Part shown: positions 38,964 to 60,677 of the stretch, piece after piece
How the letters are laid out: every line of letters begins with the position of its first letter
Numbering within the stretch: the first letter of the stretch is position 1
Assembly (NCBI GenBank): GCA_030035585.1
Contig: CM057464.1
Coordinates: 75,004,919-75,068,918, forward strand
Direction of reading: 5' to 3'
DNA length: 64,000 nt
Source: Dugong dugon
Lineage: Eukaryota > Chordata > Mammalia > Sirenia > Dugongidae
Program-made: the position numbers and the translations under genes
Notes under the pieces: generated by a model
Told to the model about the DNA's origin: nothing
The model's input: the letters and a program-made list of their open reading frames with translations, nothing else
The model's database searches: none

Positions 38964-40791
38964 AAATAAATGGGGCCTCATACAAGTTAAAAACTTGTGT
39001 TCATCAAAAGACTTTATAGAGAAATTGAAAAGACCTGCTACCAACTGGGAGAATATCTTCAGAAACCACATATCCAGTAAGAATCTAATAACAAAAATAT
39101 ATATAAAACGTCAACAACTTAACAACAAAAAGACAAATAACCCAATCATAAAATGGGCAAAGGACTTAAATAGACATTTCACCAAAGAGGACTTTCAAAT
39201 GGCCATCAAACATGAAAAGATACTCAAACTCATTAGCCATTAGAGAGATGCAAGTCAAAACCACAATGAGAGACCATTTCACTCCCTCTAAGATGGCTAA
39301 GATTTAAAAAAGAAAAACAGAAAATAACAAAAATTGGTGAGGAAGTGGGGAAATTTGAACCTTGTCCATTGCTGGTAGAAATGCCAAATGGAACAAACCT
39401 TATGGAAAACAGCATGGCAGTTCCTCAAAAAAACTAAAAATAGAACTACCATATGACCCAGCAATTCCACTCATAGATATATACCTAAAAGACTTGAAGG
39501 CAGAGACTCAAAAAGAGACACCTACACCAACATTCATTGCAGCACTATTTACAACAGCCAAAATGTGGAAACAACCTACATGTCCATCAGCACATGAATG
39601 GATAAACAAAATGTGGTACATACATACAATGGAATACTACTCAGCCTGTTGGAGAAATGAAGTCTTGATACATACTACAATATGGGTGGAGCTTGAAGAC
39701 ACTATGCTGAGCGAAACGAGCCAATTACAAAAGGACAAATTTGGTATGATCTCACTTATATAAAAAAGACAAGAAAAGGCAAATGTATGGAGAGCAAAGT
39801 TTATTGGTGGTTACCAAAGGCAGGAGGGAGGGGAAAAGGAGGGATTAATGGTGATGGAAAAATCACATTGATTAAGGGCAGGGTTGCACAGCCAATTATT
39901 ATAATTGCTGCCAGTAAGTAGTATACCTGTAAAAAGTTGAACTGGCAAAAGTTGTGTGATAGATATATTTACAACAACAATAAAAAAGAGTAGCTACTGA
40001 GGCTGCTTACGTACAACTAAAAACCTAATGGGATTTGGTTCCTTGGTTTGGAAGTTTTGGGTCATGGTTTCATGGGACATCCCAGTTAATCGGCCTACTA
40101 ATGTGTTTCTGTTCTACTTCCTAGTTTGTTGCATAGTGCCTGGAGTCTTAAAAAGCTTGCAAGCAGCCATCCAAGGCAGGACAATTGGTCTGTATTTGCC
40201 TGGAGCAACAGAGGAAGAAGACTCAGGAATAGAAGGAGGATATGGAATGTGTGGCTAATTGCCTCGATGAACAACTGTCTCCTTTGCCATGTCACCAAAA
40301 GAACAAGATTGATCAGAGATTCTACAGAAGAATCCTGTTCAAAGGGGGAAAAATGTGGAGCAGAATTTTAAATTCTCATGGACTCCAGACTTTCTGGAGC
40401 CATGGGGGCTGAATAAACACCTGAAACTATTGCCCTGAGATAATCTTCAAAACGTAAACAAAAAAGATCCCCTGAAGTCTTCTTAAAACCAAACAAAAGT
40501 TTAGCTTAAGTAATTAAAATGTCTGCCTTGAGCATTATGCTCTTTCAAGAACTATCTATATGAGATCAAAGTGACAAGAGCAACTTGAAAGATTAGATAG
40601 GAGCCTTAGATATCAGTGAGTATGTGTTAATGGAGGAGGAACAAGTCAGAAAAGGAGAGTGAGAATGGTGGCACAACTCAAAGAATGTGATCGACGTCAC
40701 TGAATTGTACATGTAGAAACAGTTAAATTGGTGTATGTTTTGCTGTGTATATTCTCAATAGCAACATCAAATTAAAAAAATAAATAAAATT
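38964..40791 (+). mobile_element. 5'-truncated L1 with 14-bp target duplication
   Basis: ORF2 C-terminal part (about 38985-39765), a 3' UTR with 'gagtcttaaaaagcttgcaa', 'ggggaaaaatgtggagcaga' and 'cactgaattgtacatgtaga', and an A-rich end (aaaaaaataaataaaat). It is flanked by gagttcacagccat (38950-38963) and gagtttacagccat (40792-40805). It belongs to a different 3'-end subfamily from the 12-kb copies. Confidence 0.9.
38985..39765 (+). pseudogene. L1 ORF2p C-terminal remnant
   Basis: Two frames (to 39243 and from 39362) carry the L1 C-terminal text: [40 protein letters not shown], then LPYDPAIPLIDIYLKDLKAE and EYYSACWRNEVLIHTTIWVE. The protein is 5'-truncated with a frame break between the two parts, and ends at the usual position before the UTR. 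Confidence 0.85.
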
Positions 40792-51589: not shown

Positions 51590-52540
51590 GCCTTTCTAGC
51601 CATGGTCTTATAACTCACACAGAATGATTGGCTGGGCCACAATCTTGCAAGGCATTGATTGATTTATTATGTAAATAAACCCCGTTAAAACCAAACCCAT
51701 CGCCACTGAGTGGATTCTGACTCATAGCGACCCTACAGGACAGAGAACTGCCCCATAGGTTTCCAAGGAGCAGCTGGTGGATTCAAACTGCTGACATTTT
51801 GGTTGGCAGCCATAGCTCTTAAGCACTGCACCACAGGACTCCATTATGTAAATAGTGGCTTAAAAATCCACCCAATAGGATTGAGCCCTTGTGTCTAGCA
51901 AGGGGAATTGATTGGTTTTGCCATCCACGTAGGCTTATATAAGGGCCAATCCCACAAAGGTTGGGGGACCTCACTACCATCAAGAAGGGTCTGGAGTAGA
52001 GCTTGTCCTTTGGACCCAGGGTCTCTGCTCTGAGAACCTCCTAGATCCAGAAGAGAGAGCTGTAACACTGAAGGTGGAGAGACAGTGGCGGTATGCTGGT
52101 CAGCCTGTGGAGAATGAGAGAGCTGGGTGCTTCCGTGCAGGAGGTTTGCCTGCTGCTAAAGAGCTGTAACACTTGCCCATGCAGGGCAGAGGCCTGAATG
52201 TGCCCCGTGCAACATGCTCCCCACCTCCCTGGGCAGTGCGGCAGGAGTCATGTAGGCCCTCTGGCAGCACAGACCCAGTAGCGTGGCAGCCAGAGAGAGT
52301 TACTTGGACCTGGGTAGTGTGGCAGGAGCCGGTGGCAGAGGCTCAGGAGATCCTGTGTAGAGGCCCATTAGCAGAGAAGAAGCTTCTTGGCAAGCCCCCT
52401 CCCCTCAGAACCCACCCCCCACCAAGACAGCAGTGACATGAAGACAGCTTCTGACCTGAATCATGACCTGCCTGCCCAGGGACATAAAAATAGACATGGC
52501 TAAGGGTAAGTGTTTCCCCTTTAAGAATTTGTTGTCATTG
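51590..52540 (+). mobile_element. Probable LTR / ERVL-type fossil, split by AfroSINE
   Basis: TATA-like 'ggcttatataagggccaatc' is followed by 'tcctttggacccagggtctc tgctctgagaacctcctaga', text shared with the MaLR LTRs in this window, and then GC-rich sequence. Edges and family are uncertain. Confidence 0.45.
51678..51842 (-). mobile_element. AfroSINE, short form, 12-bp target duplication
   Basis: 'ccaaacccatcgccactgag' to 'actgcaccacaggactcc', flanked by attatgtaaata (51666-51677 and 51843-51854). Confidence 0.95.
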
Positions 52541-54175
52541 TTTACTGTTTACTTTCTATACATAGTAATAATGACTTTAACTTTGCCAACACTGTGTAAG
52601 TGTCTTGTGTGTCCGGCCTGATCACAGATGTATGTAGCACCCATGGAATTGTTGATGTCAGTGGGTATATGTTTCTCATTCCTAGTAGTCTTATGGCTGC
52701 CCAGAAGTTGGAGGCACAGCCTGTCTGCATGTGCAATGTGGACAGATAGATGATTCACATTTCACCCACCACCAAAACCATGTGTGAGCATATGTACCCC
52801 CAGCAGGGTGAGGCCAGGTGGGGCAGGCTGGGGCCAGGGCCAGGCTAACTCAATGAAATAAGGCAGATACTGAGGAGCCATACACAGCGATGTTTCCAAG
52901 AAGCTCAGCTGGAGGGAGAAACTCAATGTCTGAGGCACATAGGTAAGCAGTTGAGTATGCCTAACCCGAAGTGTTGGGGATGCCCATTAGGCACTGCAAT
53001 AGTGGATTCAGGAGTAAGCAGGAGGGCCATGAGGTAGACAGTAGGGTATAAGCTTATCAACCTATATCCTTAACACTGATGAGGTCAGGGCACTGAAATG
53101 GTCTGACAAGGGCATGGCAGAGACTGTGGGAGCAAGGCATGGTGAGACGATCCTTCCAGGGAAGGAAGTTCAAGGGTTTCAGTTGTAGCAGGTTAATTGC
53201 ATCTTAACTAACTGCAGTTTTTGCTCAACCACGTTGACCCCTAACTCCTGGGAGATGTCTAGCCTGATTATTTGTTACCTAAAGTCTTGTCTATCAGACA
53301 CTGTCTGTCCTTCTATGACCCAACAGGCATGAACCAGTCCTGTTGTTGGGACTTAAAGCAAGGAGAACTTCCACAAAGCAGCTCATGTGACCGAAGAATG
53401 GAGGCTGTTAGAGAAAGGTCTTCCTATTACTTCTTACCAGTGAGCAGATCAACACACACCCTAATTAATATACAGGGGGAAAAAAGTGTTTAATGTGCTT
53501 AACTCTTCATAGTAGAATAAATGAGTGACTTACAGTAACATCTTGCATTTACAAAATGAGAATTCTACCAGCCATAGATTCCAGAGGCGATACACAGTAA
53601 GAGTGATCATATGAATTGACTCAAGAGCAAAGGGTTCTAAATTTTCCAAAGAGAGATGAATCAACTTAGTTTCTAAGTGTTCAGTTTACCAATCTCTCTC
53701 TAGCATTATTTCTTCCCATGTTGTATGTAGACTCAGAAGTCTGAAGCCTTTCTTTCCAGTGGCATATGTATCTTTAACATAGTACATGCCAGCTAGGATA
53801 TCTTTATAAATACATAACTTTTAGTAAAATTCCAGAATTCTAAAAATTGGGCTTCAAAGCTTTTTCAACAAGTCTTGAACCTAGTACTTACCAGTGTGTA
53901 TTCCTGCTTGGGAAAGTGTGCAAGGATGGGTTAGGGAAGATATTTTCTTCTAACTTGTTCCTGAAAGGCTAGAGAGGTATAAAAGTAAAAAGAGGCACAT
54001 TTTTTTACAGCTGGAATTAGGAAAGAGGAGTTGCTATTAGATCAGAGAGTGTACCTGGGATGCAAAAGATAATTAACAGGATAAAACCTCAGAGAGCTAA
54101 CTATGGTAACTCCCCTAGAGAGAAGGAGTTAACAATGAGATTAATTAATAAGATTAATTTATTGTTTCAAAAATT
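52541..54175. other. Unassigned
   Basis: No repeat is recognised with confidence; parts (52800-53200) might be the interior of an old LTR element. No frame has a familiar domain. Confidence 0.3.
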
Positions 54176-54337
54176 TTGGTCCATAGTCTCAATCCTGGCT
54201 GTACATTAGAAGCCCAATGCCCAGGCTACACTCTGGGCCAATTAAATAAAAATCTCTGGAGGTAGGACCCAGACATCAGTATTTTTTTAAAGCTCCTCAG
54301 CTGATTCCAATGTGCAGCCAAAGTTGAGAACCACTGA
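54176..54337. mobile_element. hAT-Charlie MITE (MER5-like)
   Basis: 'ctggctgtacattagaagcc', 'aaatctctggaggtaggacc' and the end 'aaagttgagaaccactg' with the typical inverted repeat cagtggttctcaa in reverse. Confidence 0.65.
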
Positions 54338-55689
54338 TTTAGGCAGATTTGAGAAAGAAAGATCGAGAAGATTATTTCAAGCATTATTAGGTGAGCTTCA
54401 GAGTGCAAGAGTTGGTGAGGGTAGAAGTACTGATTCTCTACAAGGGAACGTGTCCCGGAAATGTCATCTTGGGGAAGATACAGGTGAGATCCACCAGAGG
54501 AGAAAGAACAGGATAACAAATGATCTAGTCCTGACAAGCAGAAACCCCTCCGGTCCACAGTTTGTGGATGCGTTCCTGGACTTCATCTCTCCCCACTATG
54601 GTTCCCACACAATGCAGAATCTGGAGGAATGTGACACATGGAAAGAAAAGAGAGAGTTAAGTAGTGAAGCTACTTGGATTCAGCAATGTCTCTACATCTA
54701 GTAGAAAAGGACAGCAACTAATCTTAGAAACAGAAGATTATAAACATTCAATTGAAAGGAATAGGGGGAGAATAGGGCAAAATGAAACATTAAGGGTATA
54801 TTCCACTACCACAGAGAAAGATGTGGCCCCCAAAAATGTTTCTGTTGCCTCTGAAGCTGGCAAATTATTCAAAGCCTGGAAAAGTCAAAAGCTAAGGATG
54901 AGCAAAGTTGGGGGCACAAGTTTTAGTCCTCCCTGGGCCTCTTGGGGGTTTAGAATTTAATGGCTACATCCACAATGGCTTCATTCCAAGTGTCTGTGGC
55001 TCCCATGTGTCTCCGGATGAGACAAATGTGAGATTAAAGGGAAAGCGTTCCTAGGAGACAGGATGCAAAGGCCTAAGAATTTAGAAGCAGGAGGCAATGG
55101 AGCAAGGACTACACAAGCCTCAGCTTCTTGCTGAGAATGGAGAAATAAAGAGGATTGGGGACTGGAGCTGTACTTGGAGAACTGCAAGTCACCTCTGGAG
55201 GGAACCACAGTCCCAGGAGTGGGGAGTGAAATCTTGTTGCCAACAGAGGAGCGAGGAATACAGGGTTCAAAGGGGAAAGAGTATAAAGAGGCTTTAAATA
55301 CTGGGTGAGATACAAAGAGGAAGAATTCTGGAGTGTCTCAAATGCCACTCTTTGCAAGGGGAGTCAGCGTGCTTATGGGTCTCTCCCCAACCCCCACCAT
55401 CATATGGAAATACTGTGTCTCACCATCTTGACAGAGAAGCTCTCTCTATGGAGATTAAGTTTACAAACTGTGCACTCACTCTAGGCTCCTCCAGCTCAGC
55501 TTGAGAGGCATCCTGGAAGGCACGAAACCAAGGAAATCATCTCTTATCTTCTGAGTTTTCCTCTCCTTCTTACCCCAGGCAATGTTAACTCTCTATGTGG
55601 GTCTATGGCTGGCAAAGTAACATGGGTCTAGAGTGAGAATATTATACTTTCCCCAGAAAATTGCTCTAGGGTAGCACACGTTCTTGTTG
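54338..55689. other. Unassigned, apparently single-copy
   Basis: Frames at 54312-54701 (129 codons) and 54664-54960 are the longest here, but they carry no recognised motif. No repeat is recognised. Confidence 0.35.
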
Positions 55690-55748
55690 GATACATTTCA
55701 GTTGCAGTACTGCCAGGTCAAAGGATGCGTGCATTTAAAGCTCTGATA
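55690..55748 (-). mobile_element. Old L1M, left piece of host element
   Basis: 'tactgccaggtcaaaggatg cgtgcattta' is reversed L1M 3' text and continues at 58320 ('gataatgccaaattgtctcc') after the inserted block. Confidence 0.7.
55736..55748 (+). repeat. 13-bp target duplication, left copy
   Basis: taaagctctgata, identical to 58307-58319. The old L1M reads correctly across the join when one copy and the block between are left out. Confidence 0.85.
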
Positions 55749-56020
55749 CAGGAGACCTCATATCACCAAGAAAGAAGCACCAGGAGCAGAGCACGTCCTT
55801 TGAACCCAAGGTTCCTGGGCAGAGAAGCTTCTAGCCCGGGGAAAGATCGATGACAACGAGGACCTTCCTCCAGAGCCGAAAGACAGAGAAAGCCTCCCCC
55901 TGGAGGTGACGCCCTGAATCTGGACTTCTAGCTTACTAGACTGTGAGAAAATAAATTTCTCTTTGTGAAAGCCATCCACTCGTGCTATTTCTGTTAGAGC
56001 AGCACTAGATGGCTAAGACA
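55749..56020 (+). mobile_element. MaLR 5' LTR, downstream part
   Basis: 'gacctcatatcaccaagaaa' to 'actagatggctaagaca' matches the last half of the 3' LTR at 57210-57478. The promoter-bearing upstream part is not present here. Confidence 0.85.
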
Positions 56021-56958
56021 GAATTTGGTACCGAGAGAGTGGGATGCCGCTCTAACAGATACCTAAAATGTGGAAGCGGTTTTGAAACTGTGAATGGATA
56101 GAGGAGCAGCAGTGACAGAGGACCAGCAGCAGCAGAGAAACAAGTGGCAGAGAAGCAACAGCAGGAGAACCAGGAGACCAGTGCGAGACGGCGCTGGAGA
56201 TGACCCACGGAGCGAGACAGCTGAGTGCCTGTGCACAGGAGGCTTTCTGGCAGAGTGGGGTGCCTCAGGGTACTTACTGGTGGAGCTACCCAGCTTTGGG
56301 AACACTTTCCCCAGCAGGGCAGATGCAGGCTTGAGGCCCGAGGGCTGAGAGGCCATAGGAAGCAGAAGCTGAAGAGACAAAGAACACAAGAAGCAGAGCT
56401 GCCTCACTCTCAAAAGGTACGGCCATGACCTCAGGGCTTCCAAAGGGTGGAGCCATGGCCTCTGGTGTTTCTAACGGTGGAGTTTTCACTCCCGATGGAC
56501 TAGGAGAATGGTGCTCCTAAAGCTGAGGGAGCAGAGTTGCTGTCCCAGTGGGCCTGGAAGGTGGAGCTGAAGCCCAGGGACAAGGGGCCTCCACTCAGAA
56601 TCTAAAGAGTGTGGCCAATACCTAGAGTCTGGAGGGCAGGGCCATTGTGTAAATTCTCTCAGAGAACAGAAGATTATTTTCAAAGCCTTGAGGGCTAATG
56701 TAATGTGTTCTGCTGACTTGCTTAGTGCTTGTTGTCCTTTCTTTTCCTCCAGTTTCTCCCATTTGTAATGGGAATGTCTAGCTTGTGCCTGTTCTGTCAT
56801 TGTACCTTTGGAAGCAGATAGCTTGTATTCTAGATTTCACAGATGAAGAGGAATTTTTGGATTTTGGACTTGGAGTTAAGACTTTTGCTATGATATGATG
56901 AGATGAATATGTTTCGCAGGTTGCAAGGATGTGATTTTTGGGGGGCCAAATGGTAGAA
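56021..56958 (+). mobile_element. MaLR internal region
   Basis: It opens with 'gaatttggtaccgagagagt gggatgccgct', the typical start of MaLR interiors, then 'cctaaaatgtggaagcggtt'. MaLR interiors are non-autonomous. The short open frames within it are not genes. Confidence 0.8.
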
Positions 56959-57478
56959 TGTCATGGTTTGAATTATATCCTCCAAAAACTGTGTATCAAT
57001 TTGGTTGGGCCATGATTACCAGAATTGTGTGGTTGACCTCCATTTTGTGATTGTAATTTTATGTTAAAGAGGATTACGGTGGGATTGTAACACTACCCTT
57101 ACCCAGGTCACATCCCTGATCCAATATAAACGGAGTTGCCCTAGGGTATGGCCTGCACCAACTTTTACCTTACAAGAGATAAAAGGAAAGGGAAGCAAGC
57201 AGAGAATTGAGGACCTCATACCACCAAGAAAGAAGCACCAGGAAGACAGTGTGTCCTTTGGACCCAAGGTTCCTGCACAGAGAAGGTCCTAGTCTGGGGG
57301 AAGACTGATGAGGACAAGGACTTTCCTCCGGAGCCGAAAGAGAAAGAAAGCCTTCCCCTGGAGCTGATGCCCTGAATTTGGACTTCTAGCTTACTAGACT
57401 GTGAGAAAATAAATTTCTCTTTGTGAAAGCCATCCACTTGTGATATTTCTGTTACAGCAGCACTAGATGACTAAGACA
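56959..57478 (+). mobile_element. MaLR 3' LTR, full length
   Basis: 520 bp from tgtcatggtttgaa to gatgactaagaca. TATA-like gataaaagg at 57178-57186; polyadenylation-type aataaa at 57409. Same family as the solo LTRs at 6595, 16185, 40868 and 44127. Confidence 0.9.
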
Positions 57479-57868
57479 GGTATATACATACAATGGAATA
57501 TTACTCAGCCATAAAGAGAAATGAAATCCTGATACATGCCACAACATGTATGAACCTTGAAAACATGCTGAGCAAAATAAGTTAGTCACAAAATGACAAA
57601 TACTATATGACCTCACTTATATAAAGTAAGCAAATATATAGAAACCAAAGACTCCTACGAAGGGGGAAAGCAGGAGAGTTTTTGCTTAGGGGGCACTGAG
57701 TTTATGTTAATGGTGGTGGAATAATTCAGAAAAGAATAGTGATAATGATTACATAACATGAAGAATGTAATCAATGTCACTGAATTATACATGTAGAAAT
57801 TCTTGAATCAGTGAATGTTTTGTTGCATATATTTTCACCACACACACACACACACACAAACACACAAA
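57479..57868 (+). mobile_element. L1 3' end (first of three)
   Basis: It starts at the last part of ORF2 ('acaatggaatattactcagc', 'ctgagcaaaataagttagtc') and ends 'cactgaattatacatgtaga .. tattttcacca', then a CA-run at 57838-57868. Same 3'-end type as 38964-40791. Confidence 0.8.
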
Positions 57869-57874
57869 AACATT

Positions 57875-58160
57875 GTTAAGGCCCCCAGACACCCTTTTAG
57901 CTCAATGGTGAAGTCACTCCCGAGGTTCACTGTTCACCTGGGGATTGGACAGCCCCATAAAACAAAACGGGACTAATGAGGCACAGCAGTCCAGGGACAA
58001 GGACTAGAAGGCAGAAGGGGACAGGAAAGCTGGTGATAGGGAACCCAAGGTTGAGTAAGGACAGTGTTGACATGTAGTGGGGTTCTCAACCATTGTCATA
58101 GGGCAATATGTGTACTGTTTAATGAGAAACTATTTTGTTCTGTAAACCTTCATCTAAAGT
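57875..58160 (+). mobile_element. L1 3' end (second of three)
   Basis: 'acacccttttagctcaatgg', 'cataaaacaaaacgggacta' and 'ttctgtaaaccttcatctaa' match the UTR type of the 12-kb L1 (12015-12290). Confidence 0.8.
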
Positions 58161-58306
58161 GAGAATAGCAGCACAACTGGAAGAACGTAATCGACGTCAC
58201 TGCACTGTACATGCACAAATTTTTGAAATGGTGTATCTTTGGCTATGTATATTTTCACCAAAAAATAACAAATAAAAAAGCCCTCCAAAAAAAATAAAAT
58301 AAAAAA
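58161..58306 (+). mobile_element. L1 3' end (third of three) with A-rich tail
   Basis: 'gagaatagcagcacaactgg aagaacgtaatcgacgtcac' to 'tatgtatattttcaccaaaa', then A-rich sequence up to the 13-bp repeat. It resembles 40665-40790. Confidence 0.8.
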
Positions 58307-58319
58307 TAAAGCTCTGATA
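58307..58319 (+). repeat. 13-bp target duplication, right copy
   Basis: taaagctctgata, identical to 55736-55748. Confidence 0.85.
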
Positions 58320-58603
58320 GATAATGCCAAATTGTCTCCTAAAGAAGCCACTTCTGCTTGCACTTGAGACAATAGTGTTCTAGGGCCTGCTTCCCCACAT
58401 TCTGTACAGTCAGACTTTCCTATGTTTGCCAAACTTCTGTGGGAGAAATGTGCTCTCATAACTCTTAAAGTTGAGTAAGGCTGAGTGTACTTTGTGTTTA
58501 TAAGCCATTCATTGTCTTCTACTTTGAATTGTTTTTTTCAAGTCCATTAAGAAAACTTTGTCCTTTGCCATTACACTGCAAGTACTTTCCCAGTTTGTCT
58601 TTT
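58320..58603 (-). mobile_element. Old L1M, middle piece of host element
   Basis: 'gataatgccaaattgtctcc', 'ttattgtcttctactttgaa'-like text and 'cccagtttgtcttttgactt' are reversed L1M 3' text. Confidence 0.7.
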
Positions 58604-58625
58604 GACTTTGTTGTATTTTTTTAAT

Positions 58626-59229
58626 TTAAATTTTTGTGAACATATACACAGTAAAGGATACACTGTTTCAACAAATTCTACATGTGCAATTCAGTGACTT
58701 TGTTTACATTCTTCAAGTTGTGTAATTGTTCTATCCTTTCCCAAATTATTTCATCACCATTGATATAAAGACACTGCTCCCTAAGCTTCTCATCTAACCT
58801 TTTGAGATACTGTTGTCAGTTTGATCCTACATAGATAAATCTTTGAGAGAGCACAATGCTCAAGGTGGACATACTTTACTAATTTGGCTAAAATGTTTGG
58901 TTCAAAGTAGACTTCCAGGAAAAGTTTTGGTTTAAGTAATTTGTCAACAAAGTAAAGAAACAACCTACAGAATGGGTGAAAAATTATATAACTGAGATCA
59001 TAATTTTCTCCCATTCTGTAGGTTGTCTGTTTACTTTGTTGACAAAGTACTTCGATGTACAAAAGTTTTTCATTTTGATGAAATCCCATTTATCTATTTT
59101 GTCTTCTGTTGCTCGTGCCTTTGGTGTCATATCTAAGACTGTTGTTGAGGAGTAGGTCTTGAAGCAGTTTCCCAACATTATTTTCAAAAAATAAAAATTA
59201 GTTAGTCTTTTTATAGAGTGCAAGATACG
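58626..59229 (-). mobile_element. Rearranged L1 inserted in the old L1M
   Basis: A minus-strand 3' UTR (58626-58935, 'gtgaacatatacacagtaaa'), a plus-strand ORF2 snippet (58936-58990) and a minus-strand ORF2 part (59001-59229; reverse translation includes [20 protein letters not shown]). It is flanked by near-identical 22-bp copies at 58604-58625 and 59230-59251 (two mismatches). Confidence 0.75.
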
Positions 59230-59390
59230 GACTTTGTGGTATTTTTTTGATGGGCAGACATGTATCAATCATTCCTTCATGGTTCCTGGATTTTGAGTCT
59301 TGCTTTGAAAAGTTTTCCTCACTCCAAGAATATATTTTTAAAAACTCTTTCTCATATTGTCATACCTTTTCAGTTTTAGTCTGAATGGGA
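59230..59390 (-). mobile_element. Old L1M, right piece of host element
   Basis: 'atgtatcaatcattccttca tggttcctggattttgagtc' and 'cctcactccaagaatatatt' continue the reversed L1M. Confidence 0.75.
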
Positions 59391-60677
59391 AACATTAACA
59401 GAATCTCACTGTGTTGAGTAAAAGCAGGTTTCCACCAGTTAAAATAATGAAGACACTTCATAAAACCCTATGTTTCTTACGCATTGGTACCCCCATAGAC
59501 ATCATGGCTTTGGTCTCTGCCTCTCTGGGGGCATTTCTAAGTATTTCTCATGATTGTAAACTAAAAATATATCTATAGAAATACTGCTACCACCAAGTGC
59601 ACACACTGCTGATGTTTCATGCCTGGGAAGCCTGTATTCTGTCTGGCACCCATAGAGAAACTGTATGTACCAACTTAACAGTCTCCAGTAAACAGATCAT
59701 ACTCCCTGGGAAAACCAAATCTGAAAGGGGCCTCAGGTAAACTTTCATTATTTTCCAGTTATCAGCACAGAGCCATTTCTTAAGGATTTCGTGTGACAGG
59801 TCATTAATACCGCGTGCTATGAGAATATCCATTTAAGGAAGCATTCTCCTAAGTTGTTTTATTTGGAAAGATTAAGAAATGTTTCCAAACCATTCCAAAC
59901 AATGGTTTCATCAATTCCAAATAGGGCCAACTTTTAACTTCTGTGATTTGGAAGGTCCGCCAGAAGTTATTTATTCTAATTTCCACCTCTAGGAAAAATA
60001 CCCCTTTTGGGGTATCCGCTTTCTATTTTGGAAACAGAAAATGTACAGGACATGCTGCATCTTGGTGCTAAAAATTCCAGAATTCCTGGTAGGAACACAC
60101 ATCTCATACAGATATGTTTCTACCAATCTACTCCACCAACACAGTTCAAGAAATCTTAATAAGGAGCAAAATGTTGTTCCCACTGTCCCTGGAACCTACC
60201 AGAAGCTGGTGAGAAGTGAGATAATCCCGTCAAAGGAGCAAGAAATGATAAAGGAAGTGGAAAATAGACCATAAAAAAGCCACTGTTCCTCAAAGTCATA
60301 ACTGCAGAGTCATTCACCCCACCCCACCCCCAATCACTTAGTCCAGCTTCGGCTCAAAGGAGACACCTGTGAAGATTATGAAATCTGGACCTCATTCCCC
60401 TACAACCCCAACTCCACTGCTTCTGACTCTCAGATCTTCATGCCACATCTCCATGTGACCATTAGTGTTTTGATAACCAGGACCTGGAAACACAATCTTT
60501 CCCAAGTAGGGTGCGAGATTTAGCAAATAATGACTCTTAAGGCAGCCATATTAGAATAGCTGTAATGAATAAAGTCTTCTTTCTTATACTGAGATAAAAA
60601 TTTGTCTTCTACCTATTGGTGGTCCTTCCTATGTTTAAAGAAAGCTATTGAGGCCTTAAGAGTCACATTTGGGTTTA
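59391..60677. other. Repeat-poor stretch
   Basis: About 1.3 kb with no recognised repeat. The frame 60041-60274 (77 codons) has no recognised domain. Confidence 0.4.

Follow-up and report, generated by a model that had tools for sequence, protein, structure and literature searches.

A 2,558-bp insert in the dugong genome as a probable L1-type retrocopy of a read-through MaLR transcript

A block of 2,558 bp on C6 of the dugong genome is very probably an L1-type retrocopy of one unspliced, polyadenylated read-through RNA from a MaLR element located on C3 (locus L010). The block occupies positions 55749-58306 of the window, i.e. the whole stretch of 64,000 nucleotides analysed (C6:75004919-75068918). 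A first-pass annotation, made from the letters alone, had proposed that an RNA started in a MaLR LTR read through and was pasted back by L1 machinery. What it observed is confirmed with the exception of one detail, the number of L1s, and the proposed origin is supported by a source locus, by the agreeing starts of twelve other retrocopies and by an A-rich tail placed at the end of source homology. The name MaLR is taken from that annotation and is consistent with the TG..CA ends of the LTRs, the short interior and the 5-bp duplication.

Results

The insert and its target site

The block is bounded at both ends by a perfect 13-bp duplication, as annotated initially, and finishes in an A-rich tail (Table 1). 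The repeated word, TAAAGCTCTGATA, has exactly two exact copies in the window, at the two positions of the table, and 3 matches when up to one mismatch is allowed, against 0.16 expected from shuffles. Genome-wide (3.16 Gb searched), 133 copies were counted (64 + 69; 21 for the reversed control), or about 1 per 24 Mb, so that two same-strand copies bounding one block of homology by chance are very unlikely. In the swapped-flank control, 1 of 870 pairs attained the duplication score of the insert. On the shuffles, the genome count and the swapped-flank control, a chance repeat was rejected as the source of the duplication.

The two flanks joined by a single 13-mer were then used as a query, which returned 5 matches: both own flanks and 3 other places. 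All 3 non-self matches cross the flank join (query 75-135, 50-125 and 65-124, at 78-84% identity, the join being at 97-109). The flanks are thus one old repeat split by the block, which bears out the earlier reading that an old repeat runs across the join once the block is removed. The target site reads TTT/AAAG (or T/TAAAG), one base off TT/AAAA.

Table 1. Features of the insert and of its flanks (window positions)
Feature	Position	Strand	Remark
Left flank	55640..55735	+	Inner end in old repeat (L1M in the first-pass reading)
Target-site duplication, 5' copy, TAAAGCTCTGATA	55736..55748	+	Exact repeat of 58307-58319; boundary 12 bp (TTT/AAAG) or 13 bp
Truncated 5' LTR, R-U5 only	55749..56020	+	From alignment with other LTRs; start agrees with 8 R-to-R and 4 R-only retrocopies
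MaLR interior	56021..56958	+	95.6% identical to source, 937 sites
Complete 3' LTR (U3-R-U5)	56959..57478	+	TATA-like 57179-57184; own AATAAA 57408-57413 read through
GGTAT, 3' copy of the original 5-bp duplication of the MaLR	57479..57483	+	Carried from source, which has both
3' remainder of the old L1 hosting the MaLR at source	57479..57871	+	Ends in (CA)n tail
ATTGTTAAG, 5' copy of the younger L1's duplication at source	57872..57880	+	Second copy past RNA end, absent from insert
Younger 5'-truncated L1 3' UTR	57881..58286	+	Two modules, one family; stops before last module; AATAAA 58271-58276
A-rich tail	58287..58306	+	Absent from source bar its first two A's
Target-site duplication, 3' copy	58307..58319	+	Exact repeat of 55736-55748
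Right flank	58320..58460	+	Inner end continues the old repeat of the left flank

The start inside the 5' LTR

On its 5' side the insert lacks U3 entirely. It opens with CA, two bases without match to the LTR, followed by GGAGACC, the counterpart of the RNA start GGGGACC of this LTR group, and thus begins inside the LTR, 27-29 bp past the TATA-like TAAAA. The distance from the TATA-like T to GGGGACC was collected by a regular expression on L010-L038: it is 28-30 in 23 of 24 LTRs and 25 in the remaining one, in agreement with the value of about 28-30 bp that had been given for the start. Moreover, the insert starts within 2 bases of the starts of 8 of the 28 other family loci (R-to-R copies, see below) and of 4 of 19 places selected by a poly(A) pattern (R-only copies). 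Sequence comparison therefore supports this position as the probable RNA start of the LTR group, mapped independently by twelve other retrocopies, which stem from the same LTRs or related ones. The leading CA may correspond to an RNA start two bases upstream or to added nucleotides; section 7 of PMC2912911 puts the nucleotides found in front of full-length L1 mostly down to RNA starts slightly upstream.

The same position bears on a first alternative, in which a longer RNA, from the host L1 or from an upstream gene, contained the MaLR and was copied by L1 with a chance 5' truncation inside the 5' LTR. 5' truncation is common among L1 products, and the MaLR at the source does sit in an L1. The truncation would however have had to stop within 2 bases of 12 other retrocopy starts, 27-29 bp past the TATA-like box, and a window of that size represents only a few of the 2,558 positions; we regard this origin as improbable.

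The interior, the full 3' LTR, the L1 sequence and the A-rich tail follow in the order described at first. The AATAAA of the 3' LTR is intact, at a short distance from the position corresponding to 57432, near which R-to-R copies of the family mostly end.

The source locus

The block was searched against the genome and 40 of 38,646 candidates were scored, so that a relative closer than L010 is formally possible. Among these 40, only L010 (C3:67789666-67792097, minus strand, 94% over query 87-2540) shares with the insert the junction of LTR and L1 sequence, and a separate U3 match lies directly upstream of its main match. Read by eye, the locus is an L1-like sequence interrupted by the MaLR, with L1 up to the 5' LTR and again past the 3' LTR. 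The MaLR has GGTAT on both sides and a 5' LTR with U3; judged from its sequence, it is an ordinary integration with the 5-bp duplication expected for such elements. The whole-LTR pair and 5-bp duplication of an ordinary MaLR integration are thus present at L010, bar a deletion in R, and absent in the insert, which has no upstream GGTAT and kept only the 3' one. Downstream of the MaLR, L010 continues with the rest of the host L1 and then a younger 5'-truncated L1. Element and flank are therefore contiguous at one source locus, and the search suggested by the first-pass annotation led to a place where the MaLR, flanked by GGTAT on either side, has both the L1 sequence and the upstream LTR half that the insert lacks.

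From 55835 to 58288, the alignment of the insert with L010 is one continuous match with ten small gaps, hence nothing suggests splicing. The 5' LTR of L010 now lacks about 83 bp of R just past the start, which leaves the first 86 bases of the insert uncomparable. We read this gap as a later loss at L010 because the insert still has those bases. The left edge of the loss falls almost at the RNA start site, though the insert has the bases.

These comparisons also bear on the possibility that a whole MaLR integrated at C6 and lost its U3 later, or that the block is a DNA-level segmental copy of L010. LTR losses by deletion occur, and L010 itself lost about 83 bp of R. Against both versions, the truncated LTR directly adjoins the 13-bp duplication, the A-tail is absent from the source, the insert has no counterpart of the upstream GGTAT, and its homology goes no farther than the RNA-like end on either side, which makes either version very improbable.

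The L1 sequence and the 3' end

Homology with the source ends at gccctcc (gtcctcc in the source) plus at most two A's. Past this point L010 goes on with ggccaagaagggagtgtgttgac... and the insert with its A-rich tail, which thus starts no more than 2 bases from the end of source homology and 10 bases after the AATAAA of the younger L1. A G/T-rich stretch was seen by eye in L010 beyond the homology end. Hence the insert passes the intact poly(A) signal of its own element and ends at a downstream one. ATTGTTAAG has two exact copies at L010, one before the younger L1 and one after its A-tail, and one copy in the insert; it is read as the target duplication of the younger L1.

In a search with the L1 block, 40 of 14,945 candidates were scored. 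In 38 of these 40 places the match is a single unit that begins near 57877 and stops somewhere in 58265-58288. Three L1 3' ends had been annotated initially; we count two L1s instead, the "second" and the "third" end (57881-58286) forming one 3'-UTR family. The normal 3' UTR runs on for roughly another 125 bases in six aligned copies. The RNA had also been said to end at a downstream L1 signal: it does end after an AATAAA in L1, but this signal is internal to the 3' UTR of the younger L1. The loci L071-L076 belong to an L1 3' UTR family with alternating repeated modules, in which an internal A-rich run can act as an early poly(A) signal.

One could also suppose that the MaLR RNA was inserted first and that the L1 parts were nested later in its tail, since L1 could plausibly target an A-rich tail and, at L010, the younger L1 is flanked by a duplication of its own. 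The order LTR-L1-L1 is however also that of L010, the L1 blocks being 96.4% identical over 801 sites, and the whole L1 block is matched only by the insert and L010 among the 40 scored places; later nesting thus seems scarcely credible. On the source, the A-tail and the agreeing starts, we rejected later U3 deletion, DNA duplication, nested L1 insertions and random 5' truncation.

Direction of copying and proposed mechanism

The four LTR parts of the insert and of L010 share 171 ungapped R-U5 columns, 8 of which split two against two. In 7 of these 8 columns, the 5' and 3' LTRs of the insert carry the LTR-specific states of L010's own 5' and 3' LTRs, and 1 groups the LTRs of the insert against those of L010. 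This indicates that the insert was made from L010 itself, after its LTRs had diverged. K2P distances are 0.126 between the two LTRs of L010 (436 sites), 0.047 between the insert and L010 (2,422 sites) and 0.148 between the 5' LTR part and the 3' LTR of the insert (272 sites). From these values, an LTR-LTR divergence of about 0.08 (some 8%) accrued at L010 before copying. Purely as an illustration, a generic mammalian rate of 2.2e-9 per site and year would date the integration to about 29 million years ago and the copying to about 11 million years ago, the lineage's own rate being possibly different. The U3-less start and the A-tail at the homology end make both ends RNA-like and give the order C3 to C6.

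The insert very probably arose as follows. On C3, the full MaLR lies within an old L1 and is closely followed by a younger one. Transcription would have begun at the RNA start of the 5' LTR of L010 and proceeded through the interior and the 3' LTR, past the LTR's own AATAAA. The RNA would have continued through the rest of the old L1 and been cleaved about 10 bases after the AATAAA within the 3' UTR of the younger L1. Finally, L1-type target-primed reverse transcription into C6 at TTT/AAAG would have generated the 13-bp duplication. The sequence itself shows where the source lies and that copying went from there to C6, and it shows the insert to have RNA-like ends, an A-tail and a target duplication. 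The structure of the product points to L1 as the enzyme, and the RNA was presumably capped and made in the germ line.

Related retrocopies in the genome

Thirty of the 40 scored places were taken as loci for a reading of their junctions, namely the insert (L009), the source and 28 others (L011-L038); these being the best-scoring places, the sample is biased. U3 is found directly before R in 7 of the 28 (L011, L012, L016, L020, L026, L028 and L030). Eight others (L013, L014, L018, L019, L021, L022, L024 and L027) extend from R to R: their first R is not preceded by a family U3, and an A-rich tail sets in about 15-20 bases past the AATAAA of their 3' LTR (L019 and L027 have a one-base variant of this signal). 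Apart from L017, the remaining 12 are broken or truncated on the 5' side.

The duplication scores of 7 of the 8 R-to-R copies range from 12 to 26, when 99% of the 870 swapped-flank control pairs lie at 9.3 or below and their maximum is 15. The eighth, L014, has a score of 7 and failed the one-mismatch test; it was counted as R-to-R because of its start, its tail and a 15-bp repeat that is imperfect. All 8 open with a GGGGACC-like sequence after the duplication, 6 of them with five or more G; the start of L021 is CAGGGGGACC and that of the insert CAGGAGACC. Their target sites consist of a variable dinucleotide followed by AAAA-, AAAT- or AAGA-like sequence. L013, with a 26-bp duplication, is located inside another LTR, just in front of the R start of that LTR.

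A wider sample was drawn with the pattern AATAAATTTCTNTTTGTNAAA followed by up to 20 bases and A12. The + strand yielded 57 matches and the - strand 480 rows (several ends per place), and the reversed control gave 0 on either strand. Nineteen distinct places were taken among the matches listed and 420 bases were read upstream of each. Four of them (L039, L051, L056 and L081) are R-only copies, organised as duplication, GGGGACC (preceded by AG in L051), about 190-205 bases of R, poly(A) and duplication; the other 15 are unassignable from the 420 bases upstream. Duplication scores are 15, 13, 12 and 13, respectively; of 342 swapped control pairs, a score of 13 was attained by 1 and a score of 12 by 3. 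The R-only copies imply that a single LTR also fed short RNAs, copied like a SINE.

Finally, L017 (C19:20977957-20982657) starts at the same base as the insert, without U3, and has a complete 3' LTR. A further 1.3 kb is carried, which ends after an AATAAA in LTR-like sequence and closes with an A-rich tail. The target is an antisense MaLR, split by L017 into two pieces that overlap by 12 bases. Its flanks have no exact common word of at least 9 bases, so its duplication is imperfect; this duplication rests on the 12-base target overlap and on a reading by eye with one mismatch, and scored 5 in the swapped-flank test, which assumed an end at the LTR. The non-LTR sequence flanking its MaLR matches only itself, one 33-base stretch and two places on C6 at 91%. 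Both C6 places lack this MaLR in the approximately 550-570 bases fetched upstream and look like relatives of the empty site, so that the source of L017 was not found among them. One of the two has an unrelated-looking LTR piece farther off. By its structure, L017 is a probable second read-through retrocopy.

We consider it likely that a MaLR lineage of this genome was a routine passenger of L1, with capped and polyadenylated LTR RNAs of R-to-R, R-only (about 200 nt, SINE-like) and read-through type and at least about 100 retrocopies, this order of a hundred or more being extrapolated from the 57 pattern places, on one strand and with few checked.

Discussion

The closest known products are the HERV-W processed pseudogenes, endogenous retrovirus RNAs of primates mobilised by L1, for which PMC5016936 and PMC5537654 describe R-U5 and U3-R ends, poly(A), TT/AAAA and duplications of 5-15 bp. 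The insert is similar in its 5' LTR, which begins at R without U3, in its A-rich tail and in its 13-bp duplication, longer than 5 bp and within the 5-15 bp range; its target resembles TT/AAAA but is one base off. In contrast to HERV-W copies, in which the 3' LTR ends at R and is followed by poly(A), it has a complete 3' LTR and 808 bp more (57479-58286) before the A-tail, its RNA having run into downstream L1s; the element is moreover read as a MaLR and the genome is another one. These 808 bp make it a read-through variant and not a standard HERV-W-type member. Also, no single source locus is identifiable for the HERV-W pseudogenes according to PMC5016936, whereas L010 was identified here. PMC5537654 presents HERV-W as the sole HERV group so mobilised by L1, with limiting determinants still to be clarified. 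Among titles and abstract beginnings of open-licence papers, no earlier report of a MaLR lineage so mobilised was found, which is weak evidence of novelty. It is thus well supported that the insert is a read-through variant of known processed ERV copies, in an LTR group without earlier report found.

In 3' transduction by L1 or SVA, the transcript misses its own poly(A) site and takes downstream DNA along. Like these transductions, which are mentioned in PMC6500023 (where an artificial L1/MaLR chimera is used), the insert carries DNA from beyond its own poly(A) site, but its RNA would be a retrovirus-like LTR transcript with its end in an L1 3' UTR. L1 can also be mobilised from co-opted promoters, with 5' transduction (PMC13174262). 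There too a foreign promoter gives an RNA with L1 sequence; in the insert, by contrast, the promoter is an LTR inside L1, the carried L1 sequence is limited to 3' remnants, and there is no sign of splicing. Retro-DNAs arise when L1 copies transcripts of DNA transposons, and parent loci have been located for a part of them (PMC11195612). The insert is similarly a transposon of another class, apparently copied by target-primed reverse transcription, but retro-DNA RNAs are thought, in the same paper, to come from host gene transcripts, while that of the insert would come from the element's own LTR start.

The insert preserves one RNA molecule as a genomic fossil, with a readable start, end and parent. 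It indicates that the LTR of an old MaLR still drove transcription a long time after the element had integrated. If the lineage is indeed a routine passenger, L1 mobilisation of LTR RNAs is not peculiar to HERV-W, and at least one copy with LTRs some 8% apart still fed RNA to L1. A second LTR lineage with such copies, R-only ones included, would make the HERV-W determinants testable by comparison, and offers a simple means of locating the start and poly(A) sites of LTRs with DNA as the only data.

Additional observations in the window

No match to Rfam was obtained in 54000-60000, and viral contigs scanned with an LTR pattern gave 0 places. One LTR of the window comprises a stretch that we take to be AfroSINE-like. 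A different LTR-like sequence, at 51936-51990, exhibits TATATAAG and, about 28 bases downstream, the same GGGGACCTC start (by eye). About 300 bp downstream of the insertion, an antisense L1-like stretch (58614-58937) matches 40452-40782 at 71%, and a 119-bp stretch (58934-59052), also downstream of the insert, matches its own reverse complement at 86%.
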